54,369 nucleotides of DNA from Gammaproteobacteria bacterium (GTDB lineage Bacteria > Pseudomonadota > Gammaproteobacteria > Ga0077536): assembly GCA_016874535.1 (NCBI GenBank), contig VGUA01000009.1:1-54369 (forward strand). Reading direction: 5' to 3'. Below the pieces are notes generated by a model. It saw only the letters and a program-made list of their open reading frames with translations, had not been told where the DNA came from and made no database searches. Every line of letters begins with the position of its first letter. The first letter of the stretch is position 1. Positions 11,703 through 19,803 of this stretch are shown in pieces. Both the position numbers and the translations under genes were made by a program.

Positions 11703-12965
11703 TCAGCGCTTGGCGAAAGCCCTGCGCACTTCCTCCGCCAAGATGGCTATGCCACGCGACACCGTATCTTCCGGCTGCGCGAACGAGAGCCTGATGCACT
11801 GCTCGAGGTGGGCTGGAGCCGCTTTCTGTCCGGGCGCGAAGTGGTGCCCGGGGATGATGAGCACACCGCTTGCCTTCAGACGTGCATAGAGTTCCTGTGC
11901 CGTGATCGGCAACCCGCGCAACCACAGCCAGAGAAAGATGGCCCCCTCGGCGTCGTGGATGAGGTAGTCGAGCCCACTCAGTTCACGGTCGCAACAGGCC
12001 AGGGCAAAGCGGGCCTTCGCGGCGTAGAAGGGACGAATTTCCCGGGCGATGAAATGCGTGAGTTCGTCGGTCTCGAAGAGTGGTGCGGCGAGATGACAGC
12101 CCAGGGGATTGGGTGCGAGCACCATGCTGGTGTTCATGTTGGTGAGTACACCGATGAGCTCCGGTGCGGCCACGATCACACCCACCCGGAGGCCAGGCAG
12201 GCCAAGCTTGGAGAGACTGAAACAGGCAATCAGGCGCGAGGACCACGGCAGGCTGTGCGCCACGAAACTGATGCCGGGGAAAGGCTCGCCGTAGGCGCAG
12301 TCGACAATCAGGGGCACCTCGGCCGCGTCCGCCATCGCGGCCAGGCGAGCGAGGTCCTCATCGCGGCAGACATTGCCAGTCGGGTTGCACGGGCGGCTGA
12401 GACACAAGGCCGCCGTCCGCGCATCCGTGCGGATGGCGGTGAAATCCATCTGGTAACGGAACCGATGCGGCGCGGTCTCGACAGGACGCGCAGCGACCGC
12501 CCGCATCATGTCAGCCCCAAGTCCGAGGCCGCCGTAGCCGATGTATTCAGGACATTGGGGAAACACAATCTCGCGCGGGAGGCCATCACCGGTCGGGCCG
12601 CCGAGCAAGTTGAACAGCATGAAGAAGCTGGCCTGGCTGCCCGCGGTGCAAAGCACATGAGAGGCATCCACCGGCCAGCCGTGATGGCGAGCCAGGAAGC
12701 CTGCAACCGCTTGACGGAAAAACAGAGGCCCTTGGGGATCTTCATAGGCCGCAAAGGCGTCATCGAGGGCGCCGGCATTGGCGAGCGTGGCCAGGCGCCG
12801 CGAGAACCAGGTGTGCATGGCAGGCACACGGGCCGGATTGCCACCACCCAGATTGAGATAGGCACCCGGATTGCGCTGCACGGCACCGAGATCATCCATG
12901 AGCGAGCGCGTACCGGAATGTCCGGCGAAATAATCGCCCACGCGTGAGAGTCGTGGCAGGTTCAT
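11703..12965 (-). CDS. avtA: Valine-pyruvate aminotransferase AvtA
   Basis: A PLP enzyme that interconverts valine plus pyruvate with 2-oxoisovalerate plus alanine. The sequence follows E. coli AvtA along its length: LNLGGGNPA near residues 38–45, PEYIGY at 139–144, SRPCNPTGNV at 190–199, the PLP lysine K253 in SLSKLGLPG, GAIFLWLW and PGHHFAPG near the C-terminus. The product from ATG 12965 is 420 residues against 417 in E. coli; AGAGGAAAG lies upstream. The longer frame to 13016 would add a non-homologous extension. It converges with the PilZ-like gene and diverges from a small membrane protein gene. Confidence 0.93.
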   Translation of the reverse strand: MNLPRLSRVGDYFAGHSGTRSLMDDLGAVQRNPGAYLNLGGGNPARVPAMHTWFSRRLATLANAGALDDAFAAYEDPQGPLFFRQAVAGFLARHHGWPVDASHVLCTAGSQASFFMLFNLLGGPTGDGLPREIVFPQCPEYIGYGGLGLGADMMRAVAARPVETAPHRFRYQMDFTAIRTDARTAALCLSRPCNPTGNVCRDEDLARLAAMADAAEVPLIVDCAYGEPFPGISFVAHSLPWSSRLIACFSLSKLGLPGLRVGVIVAAPELIGVLTNMNTSMVLAPNPLGCHLAAPLFETDELTHFIAREIRPFYAAKARFALACCDRELSGLDYLIHDAEGAIFLWLWLRGLPITAQELYARLKASGVLIIPGHHFAPGQKAAPAHLEQCIRLSFAQPEDTVSRGIAILAEEVRRAFAKR

Positions 12966-13034
12966 CTGCTTTCTTTCCTCTGCGACCGGATCAACACTGA
13001 TGGCTCCTGCCACCACCGGGTTCTGTTGCGGATC

Positions 13035-13343
13035 ATGAAATTCAGCCCCCTGCGCGCGCTTTTATTGGCAATCACCGTCTGCGTCTCCTGCGTCGGACCG
13101 TTTCTGGATGGTACGGCTGATCCCCACTCCTGGCGCATCATTCCCACCGTGATCGCGCCGGCTTTCATGATGATGCTGGTCTTTGCCCTGCCGTTGGACA
13201 TGACCATGACGCTGGTTTTCATGAGCGACAGCGCGCCAGAGCGCAGAATCCAGCTCAGGCGGGAACTGAAGCTGGAAGCGGCAGCCATGGCGCTCATGCT
13301 GATCGCATGGACGCCTTTCTACGTGCGCTTCTTTTCGCTCTGA
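13035..13343 (+). CDS. Small membrane protein of unknown function
   Basis: A 102-residue protein with two or three hydrophobic segments: residues ~7–23, a methionine-rich stretch around APAFMMMLVFALPLDMTMT, and a C-terminal helix before the end FYVRFFSL. A charged amphipathic segment (ERRIQLRRELKLE) lies between the last two. I recognise no family. The ATG at 13035 is used; a TTG three codons upstream is also in frame. It diverges from avtA with a 69-base gap that may hold promoters for both. Confidence 0.6.
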   Translation: MKFSPLRALLLAITVCVSCVGPFLDGTADPHSWRIIPTVIAPAFMMMLVFALPLDMTMTLVFMSDSAPERRIQLRRELKLEAAAMALMLIAWTPFYVRFFSL

Positions 13344-13404: not shown

Positions 13405-14682
13405 TCACGATTGCTCTGCAGCGAGAGAGACCAGCGCCTGCCGGCAACGTTGCGCAATGAGCGCTCCCAGCGCCTCGACGACCTGCGATTTGGCATTGGG
13501 ACCCAGTTCGGTCAGCAAGCCCTCCCAGAGCTTCGCCAGGCGGCTCGCCAGATGGGCCAGGAGTTGCAGCACGTAGGCGGGCTTCACGCCGATCTGCTGG
13601 CCGAGCTCCCGCCAGCGCGCAGCGTGCACCCAGTCCGGCCTGTCCTCACGCCCGATGGCCATGGCCAGGCGATCACTCAGCCCAGGATAGACATGCCACG
13701 ACCAGATACCGAAAAATGGCCCGAGGCGGGGCCCTTGTGCGGTGTGACTCATCACGAGCTGCTTGGCATGGCCACCGCCGTAGCCAACCAGAAAGCCAAA
13801 CAACAGCCAGCGGATGAATTCCCGCAGATCCACTCCCGGTAGCGCGCTGTAGCGGCGAATCAATCCCGCGCAATCGGCGACACCGAGACCGCCCTCCCGT
13901 TCAAACTTGAGCGATGGATCAAGCACCGCGACCTGACAGAAATCCTCCATGTGCAGGCTGTGCACCGCGCCCTCTGCGTCACGGGTTCGATCGATTCTCT
14001 CCACCACGAGCAGGGTGGCATAGGCCTTGTGCAGTTCGACCTTGGCCACCCGCAGCCCTGCGGAGGCTGCGAGGCGCATGCAGAGCCACTCGTTCAGCAC
14101 AAGATCGCGCAGCGTGGTGTCGTTTATCTTCAGTAGATGTGTGCTCAGACCTGAGCCCAAACTCAGGGCAACGCCTTTTTCATCCCTGCAGACCGGTATC
14201 TTCGGCCGCGCGCCGGGCAGCACATAGCGCAGACCTTCCACTTCCATGCCAAGCGGACGCTCGGCAATCGCGGCAACGAGATGTCGCAGCTCCTCGTCAT
14301 TCAGGTGCCGCAGCCCGGATTCCCCGGGTCTCCTGTCGCTGCCCGCACCATGGAAACTCACCCCACCGACACAATCGCCACCGAGGGCGGCCAGCAGCGC
14401 GAGACTGTTGCCGGAAGAAATCCCGAGCCGGCGCGCCATTGCCGGAATGAGTTCGGGCTCTGGCAGGAGTTGTTCGCACCAGGTCTTGAGACCTGGCGCT
14501 TGTCCCCGGAGGTCGGTTTCGGACAAGGCGAGAGCGAATGGCACGGCTTTGGCCGGTGCGAGAGAAGTGGAAGTGCTGACGGCGTCGGCCGGGGGAACCA
14601 GCGCCCAGTTCGTGGTGGTGGTGGCGACCAGATGCCCCAGCCGCTCACCCCGAAAATCGAACTCGAGTTCAAGCCCCAGCAT
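13405..14682 (-). CDS. hipA: HipA-family protein with a degenerate kinase active site
   Basis: HipA toxins are Ser/Thr kinases that inactivate glutamyl-tRNA synthetase and are held in check by HipB. This 425-residue protein has the HipA layout: N-terminal subdomain (residues 1–~110), LPGARPK (155–161) in the P-loop position, the ATP-lysine region THLLKIN (K185), LNEWLCMRLA, VVERIDR, HMEDFCQ, and VYPGLSDRLAMAIG (331–344). The catalytic block that normally reads xDxHAKN is GGGHAKQ (302–308), and the metal-binding PFYD is PFFG (322–325). The three positions equal to E. coli D309, N314 and D332 are thus Gly, Gln and Gly. It should be a pseudokinase. The ATG at 14682 overlaps hipB by 14 bases. Confidence 0.85.
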   Translation of the reverse strand: MLGLELEFDFRGERLGHLVATTTTNWALVPPADAVSTSTSLAPAKAVPFALALSETDLRGQAPGLKTWCEQLLPEPELIPAMARRLGISSGNSLALLAALGGDCVGGVSFHGAGSDRRPGESGLRHLNDEELRHLVAAIAERPLGMEVEGLRYVLPGARPKIPVCRDEKGVALSLGSGLSTHLLKINDTTLRDLVLNEWLCMRLAASAGLRVAKVELHKAYATLLVVERIDRTRDAEGAVHSLHMEDFCQVAVLDPSLKFEREGGLGVADCAGLIRRYSALPGVDLREFIRWLLFGFLVGYGGGHAKQLVMSHTAQGPRLGPFFGIWSWHVYPGLSDRLAMAIGREDRPDWVHAARWRELGQQIGVKPAYVLQLLAHLASRLAKLWEGLLTELGPNAKSQVVEALGALIAQRCRQALVSLAAEQS

Positions 14683-14902
14683 GGGTTCCCGCCGCGCGCT
14701 GGTGACGCTCGTGCACGTCGAGTTCAAGACCCAGAGTCTCCAGCACCCGCAGCACGCGACCTATTTCGAGCGTTTCCTTGCCTTTCTCAAGCTCGCCGAT
14801 GAATCGGGTACCAACGCCGGCCAAGGCAGCGAGTTCCTGCTGCCGCAGGCTGACCCCCTTGCGGCGCAGACGAACCCTGCGGCCCAGCTCCTCGACGTTC
14901 AT
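14669..14902 (-). CDS. hipB: HipB-like XRE-family antitoxin/repressor
   Basis: A 77-residue DNA-binding protein with a Cro/C1-type helix-turn-helix: LRQQELAALAGVGTRFIGEL at about residues 19–38, followed by the HipB-like helix and strand EIGRVLRVLETLGLELDV. HipB proteins bind DNA as dimers, repress their own operon and neutralise HipA. The ATG at 14902 follows GAGGGA at proper spacing. The gene precedes and overlaps hipA, the standard antitoxin-first order, so it probably autoregulates through sites in the AT-rich region upstream. The C-terminal tail (residues 66–77) is short and polar. Confidence 0.9.
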   Translation of the reverse strand: MNVEELGRRVRLRRKGVSLRQQELAALAGVGTRFIGELEKGKETLEIGRVLRVLETLGLELDVHERHQRAAGTHAGA

Positions 14903-15411: not shown

Positions 15412-18400
15412 TCAAATCTTGCGTCTCGCGGCTTGGGGGCTGGAGCGTCGGGCGATCAAGGCCGTCCGGACGCGCATCTCCTGTGCCGCGTCCAAGGTCT
15501 TGAGAAGGTGAATCTGGCCTGCAAGGCGGGTGGCAACGGGCTCGCCATCCAGCCAGGCGACCACCGCCTGACTGTTCGTTGGTACCCGCACTCCCGGGGT
15601 GAGTATGCCCACGAGATTGAGCGGATCCGCGGCGCTGGTGAGTACGGGAACTCCGCTGGCCTGGCTTGCGCGGACACGCCGCAGGGCAGCGACAACCTCG
15701 GGCAGGGCAAATTGCTCGCCGGCAAAACCGGCCACGAAGCGCCCTCCCCTGATTTCCCCGCGCGCTTCCATGCGCCGCAGGCATTGCAGGATGGGTCGCC
15801 AGAGCTGCGCGCAGTTCTCGCGCTCCAGGAGTCGCCGGAAGACCACGCCGTAGCGTTGCAGGAGACTCCGTGCGACAGGTTCCAGATCCGGAGCGCCATA
15901 GGGCAGTTGTTCCGGCCCGCCTTCCCCGGCTGCGAGCAACGCCCAACGGCCCGTGTCCTCGATGCCGGTGGCCACGGCCCGTCGTCGGCGTTGACCGTGC
16001 AAGGGACGGCGTTTTGCACTGGGGGTCAGAAGCACACGCAGACCCAGCGTGTTGTCGGATGTCGCGAGCCCCGCTGTCACGAGCTCACTCAGCGCCTGCT
16101 CGCACTGGGTCCTGAGCAATCGGGTGCCGGCCGCAATGTCGTCGAAGAACGAAGCGCCATGACCCTGCAAAAAGGCCTGCACGGCCAACGCCACGCCACT
16201 CAGTTCGGGTTTTTCATCGCCACCATGCAGGCGCAACCATGCGCGCAAATCACCGCGCGGAACAAAGCTGATGGGGGAAGTCCGCAGCAACTGTGCGCCC
16301 GCCTTGCCGCCCTCGCGGGGCCGCAGGCGCAACCAGCTCACCCTGCCGCCTCCGCTCAGGCGGTCGAGCATCGACGGGCTGTAGTCCTTGATCCTGAGCG
16401 GGAGGATGGCCTGCTCCCACGCCGCGGCCGGGGCTTCGAAGCCCGCAAGCATTTCGAGCACCTTGGCAGTCGCCTGGGTGCCCTCCACCTGCTGCCCCCC
16501 AGCCGCGTATTGCCACTCAAAGAGGAAACGCAGGAAGTCGGCAGCGGCGACCGGTTCTATCTCGGCGCGCAGACGGTTCAGGGTGTAGCGGTGGATGCGC
16601 GCAAGCAGGCGGCGCTCACACCATTCGAGGTCGACCACCCCCGGGGAATACTGTCCGCGCATCACGATGCCCTGGGCTTCCAGTGCATGAAGTTGTTGTT
16701 CGATGGCGGAGGTCTCCTGTCCGAGGTGCGCGGCAAGCATCTGCACCGTTACCGGACCGCAGACCTCCATCCAGCCCCGCACCAGCGCCAGCAGGGGCGA
16801 CTCCACGGTCGGCAACTGCAATTCGGCCGGCGGCTCTGCGCCGATCAGTGCTGCGCCGGGCCATAGCCCGCACAGGTCGCGGCAACGCTCGGCCGCGAGC
16901 CACTTCATCTCATCCGCTGGCTGCGAACCTAGGCCGCCGGTCGAGGATCCTCGCGTATGCAAGGTGAGCGCGCGGCCCTCGCCTGCCAGCACCTCGTACC
17001 AATCCGCAAGCCTCGCCTCATCCACCTCTGCAAGCTCGCCCCGGGGGCCGTGTGCGAGGGTCGAGGGACTGACCGCCCCCAGCAGATCCAGCGCCTCATG
17101 CAGCTCGTCCCGATTGCGCGGGCTTGGCCAGACTTCCGCGATCACCCGTGCGATGGCCTGAGGATCCAGTGCGCCGAGATCGGTTGCCAGGGCCGGATCC
17201 AGCCAGCGACGGCTCTGCACGGCCTGGGTACGCCGCTCCTCCAGCGGGGCATCATCGAGAAACGCATAGGGATTGGCATTCAGGACTGCCTGCGCGAATG
17301 GCGATGGCTCGGTGAGGTCGCGCGCAACCAGTTCTTTTTCCCCCGCTTCGATGGCGCGCAGGAGAGCTTCGAGGCCGGTGCAGTCCATGACGTCCGAGAG
17401 GCAGTCGTCGATGGCTTGTGCGACGAGCGGATGGTCCGGGATCTCGCGGGCGCCAGTGAGGTTTTCCGCACAAGCCAGCTGATCGGGAAACACCAGCGAC
17501 ACCAGATCCTCGGCAGACATGCGCAACAGTCTGGGCGGCGTGCGTTTGCCAAACCGGCTGCGCTGGATGGCCAGTGCACAGCAGGCCACCCAGCGCCAAC
17601 GCACCGGAAACATGGGCGCATCCAGAAGCGCCTGGGTCAACACCTGGCGCACGGTGGCCGCCTTGAGGAAGCGCCAGACATCTTCCAGCGGAAAACTGTG
17701 GATGGCGCCCAGCGAAATGACGATTGCATCCTCCACCGCCGCAGCCTGCAGCTCGAAATTGAACTGGCGGCAGAAACGCTTGCGCAGGGCGAGCCCCCAA
17801 GCCCGATTGATGCGTGTGCCGAAAGGCGAATGGATGACGAGCTGCATGCCGCCCGATTCGTCGAAGAAGCGTTCGAGTACCAGTGTGTGCTGGGTGGGCA
17901 TGACACCGAGCGCCAGGCGACCGCCCGCGAGATATTCGTAGATCTGCTCGGCAGCGGAACGACCCAGTGCCAGATCCTCGCGCAGCCAGGCGAGGAGCGT
18001 GGCTGCTCGTTGCTCACCCGCAGTGGCCAGCAGGCGCAGATCGAAATCAGCGCGCAGGCGGGACACGGCCGTGGACAGTTCATCACTGCGCGCCGGTGCC
18101 TCACCGACCCAGAACGGCATGTTGGGAGGTTCGGCGGCGGCGTCGGCCACGCGCACGGCAGATTGCTCTATCTTCACGATGCGCCAAGAGCTGTTGCCCA
18201 GCTGGAAGATGCTTCCGGGCATGCTGTCGATCGCAAAATCCTCGTTGACGGTGCCGACAAACTGGCCGCTCGGCTCCACCAGGACGTCGTAATCGGCCGT
18301 GTCGGGAATTGCCCCGCCACAGGTGATGGCAACGAGGCGCGCGCCCGGGCGGGGCCGCACCTGGCGGTTGATGCGGTCCAGATGCAGATAGGCACTGCGC

Positions 18401-19803
18401 CGGCCACGGGCGAAGGCATACCCTTCGGCCAGCATGTCGAGCACGCGCGAGAAGGTTTCGGTGGACAAGGCGCGGTAACAATATGCACCCCGCATCAGGC
18501 CGAGCAGTGCATCGAAGCTGCATTCCCCGCGCGCCGCCACTTCGGCCACGATTTGCTGGGCGAGCACATCCAGTGCCGGGCCAGCGATGGTCAAACGATC
18601 CAGTTCACCCCGACGCGTCATGTCGAGCAGGGCTGCGCATTCCACGAGTTCGTCCCGGCTTTGCGGGAAAAGGCGTCCCTTGATCAGCGCATCGAGTCGA
18701 TGGCCGGAGCGCCCCACACGCTGGAGCAGTGTTGCGAGCGTTCGCGTGGAGCCAATCTGGCAGACCAGATCCACCTCGCCCACATCGATACCAAGCTCGA
18801 GTGAGGCCGTGGCCACCAGCGCCCGCAGCTGCCCCGCCTTGAGCCGCTGCTCGGCCTGCAGGCGCAGCTCGCGCGACATGCTGCCGTGATGGGAAGTGAT
18901 GAGATCATTCCCGATACGATCACTGAGCGCCTTGGCGACCCGTTCGGCCATGCGCCGCGTGTTGACGAACACGAGTGTTGTGCGGTGCTCGAGGATCAGT
19001 TCCGCAATCCGGTCGTGCATCTCGGACGCGGATTCCGCAGACAGCACCGCCTCCAGCGGCGCGCTCGGCAGCTCGAGCGCGAGGTCACGGGTGCGGGCGT
19101 GGCCCTCATCGATGATGTCGACCTGCTTCTGCAGGCTCTCGCACGCAGAAGTGCCGCAGAGGAAACGAGCCACTTCCTCCAGCGGCCGTTGCGTGGCGGA
19201 GAGCCCAATCCGGCGGGGGCGTTGGGCGGTCAGCGCCGACAGCCGCTCAAGACTCAGGGCCAGGTGGGCGCCCCGCTTGGTGCCCGCCACGGCATGAATC
19301 TCGTCCACGATGATCGTGCGGGTGGTCTTCAGCATGTCCCGCCCGCTCTCGCTGGTGAGCAGGATGTAGAGCGACTCGGGCGTGGTGACGAGGATCTGGG
19401 GCGGGTTCCGCCGCATCAGCGTGCGGGAGATCTGGGGTGTATCTCCCGTTCGCACCGCCGTGCGCAGGGGCACTGCGGGAAATCCCCCCGCCGCGAGGGC
19501 CTCCTGAATACCCGCGAGCGGCTGCTCCAGATTGCATTGGATGTCGTTGCTGAGAGCCTTGAGCGGCGAGACATAAACAATCTGCACACCCTCGGCGAGC
19601 CTGTTCTCCACGCCCTGGCGGACCAGTTCGTCAATGACGGCCAGGAACGCAGCCAACGTCTTGCCAGCACCGGTGGGTGCCGCCACCAGGAGATCGCGTG
19701 GCTCGCGCAGTGCCTCCCAGGCACGGATCTGCACCGGGGTGGGGGCCGTGAAAGCCACACTCAACCAGGTGGAAACCGCGGGATGAAAACGTTCCGGTGA
19801 CAT
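15412..19803 (-). CDS. lhr: ATP-dependent helicase Lhr
   Basis: A 1463-residue superfamily-2 helicase of the 'large helicase-related' family, which unwinds DNA 3' to 5' and is linked to repair. Walker A is APTGAGKT at residues 42–49, the DEIH box at 167–170 and motif III SATQ at 202–205. The second RecA-like domain includes TTLVFVNTRRMAERVA, ASLELGIDVGEVDLVCQIGS and QRVGRSGHR. Winged-helix and Lhr-core regions follow, then the long C-terminal half found only in full-length bacterial Lhr (E. coli 1538 residues). No frameshift is seen. It is transcribed alone, divergent from trmO; a 7-bp hairpin lies directly after its stop. Confidence 0.95.
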   Translation of the reverse strand: MSPERFHPAVSTWLSVAFTAPTPVQIRAWEALREPRDLLVAAPTGAGKTLAAFLAVIDELVRQGVENRLAEGVQIVYVSPLKALSNDIQCNLEQPLAGIQEALAAGGFPAVPLRTAVRTGDTPQISRTLMRRNPPQILVTTPESLYILLTSESGRDMLKTTRTIIVDEIHAVAGTKRGAHLALSLERLSALTAQRPRRIGLSATQRPLEEVARFLCGTSACESLQKQVDIIDEGHARTRDLALELPSAPLEAVLSAESASEMHDRIAELILEHRTTLVFVNTRRMAERVAKALSDRIGNDLITSHHGSMSRELRLQAEQRLKAGQLRALVATASLELGIDVGEVDLVCQIGSTRTLATLLQRVGRSGHRLDALIKGRLFPQSRDELVECAALLDMTRRGELDRLTIAGPALDVLAQQIVAEVAARGECSFDALLGLMRGAYCYRALSTETFSRVLDMLAEGYAFARGRRSAYLHLDRINRQVRPRPGARLVAITCGGAIPDTADYDVLVEPSGQFVGTVNEDFAIDSMPGSIFQLGNSSWRIVKIEQSAVRVADAAAEPPNMPFWVGEAPARSDELSTAVSRLRADFDLRLLATAGEQRAATLLAWLREDLALGRSAAEQIYEYLAGGRLALGVMPTQHTLVLERFFDESGGMQLVIHSPFGTRINRAWGLALRKRFCRQFNFELQAAAVEDAIVISLGAIHSFPLEDVWRFLKAATVRQVLTQALLDAPMFPVRWRWVACCALAIQRSRFGKRTPPRLLRMSAEDLVSLVFPDQLACAENLTGAREIPDHPLVAQAIDDCLSDVMDCTGLEALLRAIEAGEKELVARDLTEPSPFAQAVLNANPYAFLDDAPLEERRTQAVQSRRWLDPALATDLGALDPQAIARVIAEVWPSPRNRDELHEALDLLGAVSPSTLAHGPRGELAEVDEARLADWYEVLAGEGRALTLHTRGSSTGGLGSQPADEMKWLAAERCRDLCGLWPGAALIGAEPPAELQLPTVESPLLALVRGWMEVCGPVTVQMLAAHLGQETSAIEQQLHALEAQGIVMRGQYSPGVVDLEWCERRLLARIHRYTLNRLRAEIEPVAAADFLRFLFEWQYAAGGQQVEGTQATAKVLEMLAGFEAPAAAWEQAILPLRIKDYSPSMLDRLSGGGRVSWLRLRPREGGKAGAQLLRTSPISFVPRGDLRAWLRLHGGDEKPELSGVALAVQAFLQGHGASFFDDIAAGTRLLRTQCEQALSELVTAGLATSDNTLGLRVLLTPSAKRRPLHGQRRRRAVATGIEDTGRWALLAAGEGGPEQLPYGAPDLEPVARSLLQRYGVVFRRLLERENCAQLWRPILQCLRRMEARGEIRGGRFVAGFAGEQFALPEVVAALRRVRASQASGVPVLTSAADPLNLVGILTPGVRVPTNSQAVVAWLDGEPVATRLAGQIHLLKTLDAAQEMRVRTALIARRSSPQAARRKI

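Follow-up and report, generated by a model that had tools for sequence, protein, structure and literature searches.

A HipA-fold protein without the canonical kinase residues, retained beside HipB in one gammaproteobacterial family: a candidate domesticated co-repressor

HipA is the founding persistence toxin. In the 54,369-nucleotide stretch of gammaproteobacterial DNA analyzed here (the window), a gene arrangement of the HipBA type is present, with hipB directly upstream of hipA and overlapping it, and the HipA-like protein has lost the residues of kinase catalysis. Sequence comparison across the family gives good support to the view that this protein is a selected pseudokinase, presumably devoid of kinase activity. 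The module as a whole is probably an anciently domesticated, autoregulated HipBA in which HipA would act as the non-catalytic co-repressor partner of a DNA-binding HipB. A clade without the catalytic residues but with HipB and, mostly, its operators separates the regulatory role of the toxin from the poison. It enables a direct test of whether a toxin-antitoxin complex can be maintained solely for its action as a transcription factor or for the protection it gives against active relatives.

Catalytic residues and predicted fold

The features of the locus are collected in Table 1. The window HipA matches Pfam HipA_C (E=5.5e-37) and Couple_hipA (E=4.5e-10), both above the curated cut-offs, and its HipB scores 76.2 bits for NCBIfam couple_hipB, for which the cut-off is 71.65. 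Alignment to the solved chains of E. coli and Shewanella HipA places G303, Q308, and G325 of the window at the positions of E. coli D309, N314, and D332; the window reads GYGGGHAKQ versus GATDGHAKN in E. coli and PFFG versus PFYD. The alignment bears out the preliminary description, which had read these positions as Gly, Gln, and Gly. That description was also correct that the ATP lysine (K185), the LNEW and VYPGLSD segments, and the overlap with hipB are intact and that the frame is unbroken over 425 residues. The autophosphorylated Ser150 has been replaced too, by V154; this position is serine in 21 of 21 active relatives, whereas across the 18-locus clade described below it is serine in one locus and threonine in nine.

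Table 1. Positions of the HipBA-type module, its motifs and putative operators, and its neighbors in the window
Feature	Position	Strand	Remarks
hipA-like gene, 425-aa HipA-fold pseudokinase (putative)	13405..14682	-	ATG start, unbroken frame
hipB-like gene, 77-aa HTH antitoxin/repressor (Y4mF/couple_hipB)	14669..14902	-	14-nt overlap with hipA
Degenerate catalytic loop YGGGHAKQ, residues 301-308	13759..13782	-	G303 for D309, Q308 for N314
Degenerate metal-binding motif GPFFG, residues 321-325	13708..13722	-	G325 for D332
V154, position of autophosphorylated Ser150	14221..14223	-	By alignment
K185, equivalent of the ATP lysine	14128..14130	-	Kept in window, lost in genus g2
Degenerate operator, register -18, AGGCCGTGAGGGAA	14907..14920	-	
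Degenerate operator, register -67, ATGCATTCAGGGAA	14956..14969	-	
Degenerate operator, register -116, CGCGTGAGCGGGAA	15005..15018	-	
lhr-type helicase gene, conserved upstream neighbor	15412..19803	-	Context outside the module
Class I/II aminotransferase gene, conserved downstream neighbor	11703..13016	-	Context outside the module

An ortholog search of 36 genomes of the family, the full set available for its order, returned 17 orthologs beyond the window. A scan of the genome contigs for related loci contributed a single ortholog, from the very contig of G003. Together, the window and the 17 orthologs make 18 loci, 34-79% identical, from seven genera of the family. In every one of the 18, another residue stands at the position of the catalytic Asp (G, A, Q, L, or H) and at that of the Asn (Q, D, T, A, or S). 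The metal-binding Asp is absent from 16 and kept in two; the substitutes vary from genus to genus. Sequencing or assembly error was rejected as an explanation because the loss is common to all 18 loci, each from a genome that was sequenced separately. HipAs for comparison came from sampling the class (369 genomes) and the phylum (398 genomes). Nearly all HipAs in these samples have the canonical residues, and all three are kept in 62 of 64 comparison HipAs, the exceptions being L031 (Asn for the catalytic Asp) and L086 (Glu for the catalytic Asp, Gly for the metal Asp). A maximum-likelihood tree unites the family loci in one clade (support 100/99), and 100% of bootstrap trees have one change of catalytic state. 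The loss has a single origin in the family; near and distant relatives alike share it, and none has regained all the residues.

The AlphaFold2 model of the window HipA has the HipA fold (pLDDT 79.8, pTM 0.84). A Foldseek search with this model ranked Shewanella HipA 4pu5 first (E 9e-26, TM 0.85), so the prediction proposed earlier, as run for HipA alone, matches a solved HipA. A model of a protein from genus g2, whose members lack the lysine, has the same order of elements (75.8 and 0.82, respectively). The HipA fold is thus predicted to be retained in both.

Selection and inheritance in place

Across pairs, dN/dS of hipA is about 0.06-0.23 overall (NG86/YN00), values to be read with the caveat that dS is high, near saturation, in several pairs. 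The window and its nearest relative, G003, give 0.096 (NG86 only, dS 1.68). Other pairs give 0.09/0.06 (G020-G019, NG86/YN00 here and below), 0.16/0.18 at a dS of 0.08 (G009-G010), 0.09/0.13 (G012-G011), and 0.20/0.23 (G007-G012). These values are near those of the neighboring aminotransferase gene (0.05-0.18), and hipA evolves faster than lhr (mostly 0.05-0.12). No internal stop was found in any of the 18 loci. Given the low dN/dS and the intact frames, simple decay is strongly disfavored, with caution over the high dS. The earlier claim of a selected pseudokinase rather than decay therefore holds up: dN/dS is not near 1, the loss is shared, and the carriers form a single clade under purifying selection.

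Constraint within the protein has also moved. Three parts of the protein hold the positions that are fixed in active relatives and lost in the clade: the surroundings of the Gly-rich loop (S150 and its neighbors), the catalytic loop, and the metal motif. New near-invariant positions include W26, R262, R287, H330, R338, R356, and the C-terminal R414 and Q415; D347, R348, D350, W351, and E423 are clade-specific as well. The mean conservation shift goes from -0.06 in the kinase core to +0.11 in the C-lobe tail, residues 327-425 (Mann-Whitney p=4e-6).

As far as the contigs extend, the 18 loci have hipB and then pseudo-hipA between the lhr helicase gene and the aminotransferase gene. A glycerate kinase gene may stand between lhr and hipB, and an FHA-domain gene of the opposite strand between pseudo-hipA and the aminotransferase gene; some genera, that of the window included, lack these additional genes. 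Pairwise identities of hipA track those of lhr (Spearman 0.53) and of the aminotransferase gene (0.60). The module is inherited vertically at the same chromosomal position, and a mobile-element origin of the clade was rejected on the basis of the conserved synteny. In G002, a complete congener, lhr, glxK, and the aminotransferase gene are present without hipBA between them, and the module is therefore dispensable.

The interval between pseudo-hipA and the aminotransferase gene varies in content. In several genera it holds the FHA-domain gene (L061:8059-8961; equivalents in L060 and L062-L065), which is absent from the window. In the window, positions 13026-13343 of the forward strand hold a hydrophobic 105-aa ORF without a Pfam match, and a similar place is also occupied in L110.

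HipB, operators, and a putative co-repressor

A hipB gene adjoins pseudo-hipA in 18 of 18 loci, and its recognition region, GVGxRF, is conserved in the clade and matches that of active relatives. The C-terminal Trp of HipB, which in E. coli inserts into a pocket of HipA (PMC10627512), is present in 15 of the 18 loci and absent from the window, L066, and L073. Upstream of hipB is a palindrome, TTCCCGTACGGGAA, mostly near -117, with more copies near -68 and -18. At constant registers, the best copy exceeds the 95% shuffle level in 16 of 18 loci, with a matrix built from those same loci; single-locus shuffle tests against a fixed consensus gave p values of 0.005-0.015 in most loci. The window has only degenerate, half-site-like copies at the three registers, with 5-6 mismatches of 14 each and a joint match of p about 0.001. 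With the operators and the HipB Trp both weakened, DNA binding in the species of the window may be weaker or changed.

The same palindrome is found in active relatives outside the family, at -117, -68, and -18 in L029, L030, L032, L075, and L077 and at -138, -88, and -38 in L020, L036, L037, and L081. The simplest origin of the array is therefore inheritance from a functional toxin-antitoxin module. No shared second target was found when the 36 family genomes were searched for ATTCCCGNNCRGGAAWA with one mismatch allowed. The non-hip sites examined are either coding (L145-L148) or confined to a single genome (L149, L150), those of L144, L146, and L147 falling in one conserved protein. As there is no common target among them, a trans-regulon was rejected.

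In canonical HipBA, the toxin pairs with HipB and bridges operators. We favor a comparable structural role here as the members share HipB, the predicted fold, and, mostly, the operator. In an ancestor of the family, an active hipBA operon with the array TTCCCGTACGGGAA would have come to lie between lhr(-glxK) and the gene for the aminotransferase. Loss of the catalytic Asp, of the Mg-binding residues, and of the autophosphorylation serine from its kinase would have happened once, ahead of the divergence of the sampled genera, and vertical inheritance as a non-catalytic HipB-HipA complex would have followed. HipB would bind the palindromes upstream of its own gene, and HipA, paired with HipB, would bridge the operators as a structural co-repressor. 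Co-repression is a common role of the toxins in type II modules (PMC4803016). Of the three roles suggested in the preliminary description, that of HipB co-repressor fits best, with HipB at every locus and the operator mostly conserved; the role itself, the HipA-HipB-DNA complex, and the advantage of the circuit are what we infer. Some findings weigh against this reading. In the window, the operators are degenerate and HipB lacks the C-terminal Trp. Without a conserved target gene beyond hipBA, the module would be a pure autoregulator with no visible purpose, and the complete congener G002 lives without it.

Alternative readings and known systems

An unlikely alternative, although the one that survives best, is immunity or anti-addiction: the dead HipBA would keep the operator specificity and the HipB of a widespread, mobile active family and so silence or neutralize entering modules. 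Were this so, the former persistence toxin would now serve the lineage as a lasting, vaccine-like regulator. Distant families of the class do carry active HipBA modules that share the operator core and have closely similar HipAs (L020, L034-L037, L039). The array lies at -38/-88/-138 in those checked, and the type is a widely transferred module. In G011, a genome of the family, the pseudokinase module coexists with an active one of this type whose operator matches. Against this, a second HipA_C protein is missing from 11 of the 18 genomes, that of the window among them; the additional resident HipAs that were examined (L019, L021, L023) sit on different branches of the tree; and the shared operators may just be inherited. 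The same count tells against the earlier suggestion of a decoy for resident HipA toxins, which is therefore not a general role; the second, active hipBA that was to be looked for is missing from the genome of the window.

A search of plasmid sequences gave 1,639 records with HipA, none above 60% identity, and the two examined are canonical. An anti-phage system was rejected, there being no PADLOC match for HipA.

Somewhat less probable than immunity is a sensor, in which HipA would bind ATP or a tRNA synthetase without phosphorylation and so tune HipB. The clade has two grades in this respect. Ten loci keep the lysine, together with Q308 and G325, which are clade-specific and conserved, as a nucleotide-binding role would have it. 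In the other eight, all of genus g2, the lysine is gone along with much of the pocket, and most are altered elsewhere in the site as well, yet the gene, HipB, and the predicted fold are kept; ATP sensing, also put forward at the outset, is therefore not the shared function. The family-wide absence of the Asn and the near-complete absence of the metal Asp (16 of 18) point the same way.

That the protein is an atypical active kinase, with other residues in place of the catalytic ones, appears improbable. The intact predicted fold and the conserved pseudo-site residues of the ten lysine-bearing loci are compatible with it, and atypical effector kinases are known in Legionella (PMC9758233). However, the loss extends to the base, the Asn, and the metal Asp together, the substitutes differ by genus (G/A/Q/L/H and Q/T/D/A/S), and in HipA the single substitution D309Q reduces both toxicity and tolerance (PMC11717353). 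Least probable of all is that a dead toxin-antitoxin module is decaying slowly and neutrally, which would suit the weakened operators and HipB Trp of the window and the pace of hipA relative to lhr but not the absence of internal stops from 18 loci, a dN/dS far below 1, or the newly conserved residues.

Canonical HipBA (E. coli K-12, Shewanella oneidensis; clade I HipA, PMC8262856) shares with the window the hipB-hipA order with overlap, a full-length HipA with N-subdomain 1, the fold, and an HTH HipB, and palindromic operators lie upstream in canonical HipBA as they do at most loci of the family. It differs in having the catalytic Asp, Asn, and metal Asp and Ser150 that the window HipA lacks and in being mobile, whereas the family module is inherited in place. 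The nearest type outside the family is the active gammaproteobacterial HipBA of L029, L030, and L032 (34-39% identity), which has the same operator in the same registers and the same HipB recognition region but intact motifs for catalysis (GNADAHxKN) and metal binding (P(F/C)YD). HipBST (HipT; E. coli O127, Legionella) shares the Hip kinase fold and a HipB partner; its toxin is split in two proteins, with the N-terminal part as a separate HipS, and its kinase is active. The Legionella pseudokinases Llan_0165 and Lspi_2187 have also lost the catalytic Asp of a kinase fold, but they belong to other families, are predicted effectors, and keep the Asn and metal Asp (PMC9758233). A survey of Hip kinases describes their families as retaining four core kinase motifs (PMC8262856). 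We found no report of HipA pseudokinases or of an inactive HipA clade in the open-access literature searched.

The two exceptions among the comparison HipAs differ in kind. L086 (L112, G480:C76:85602-86792) is a degenerate HipA (GNTEGHGQN, PFTG) beside hipB in another lineage of the phylum, and its degeneration is apparently independent of the family clade; it lacks the operator, which its congener L082 keeps together with a canonical HipA. In L031 (L113, G193:C117:4641-5774), the catalytic Asp has become Asn (GNHNAHAKN), the Asn and metal Asp are kept, and the upstream region holds no clear operator.
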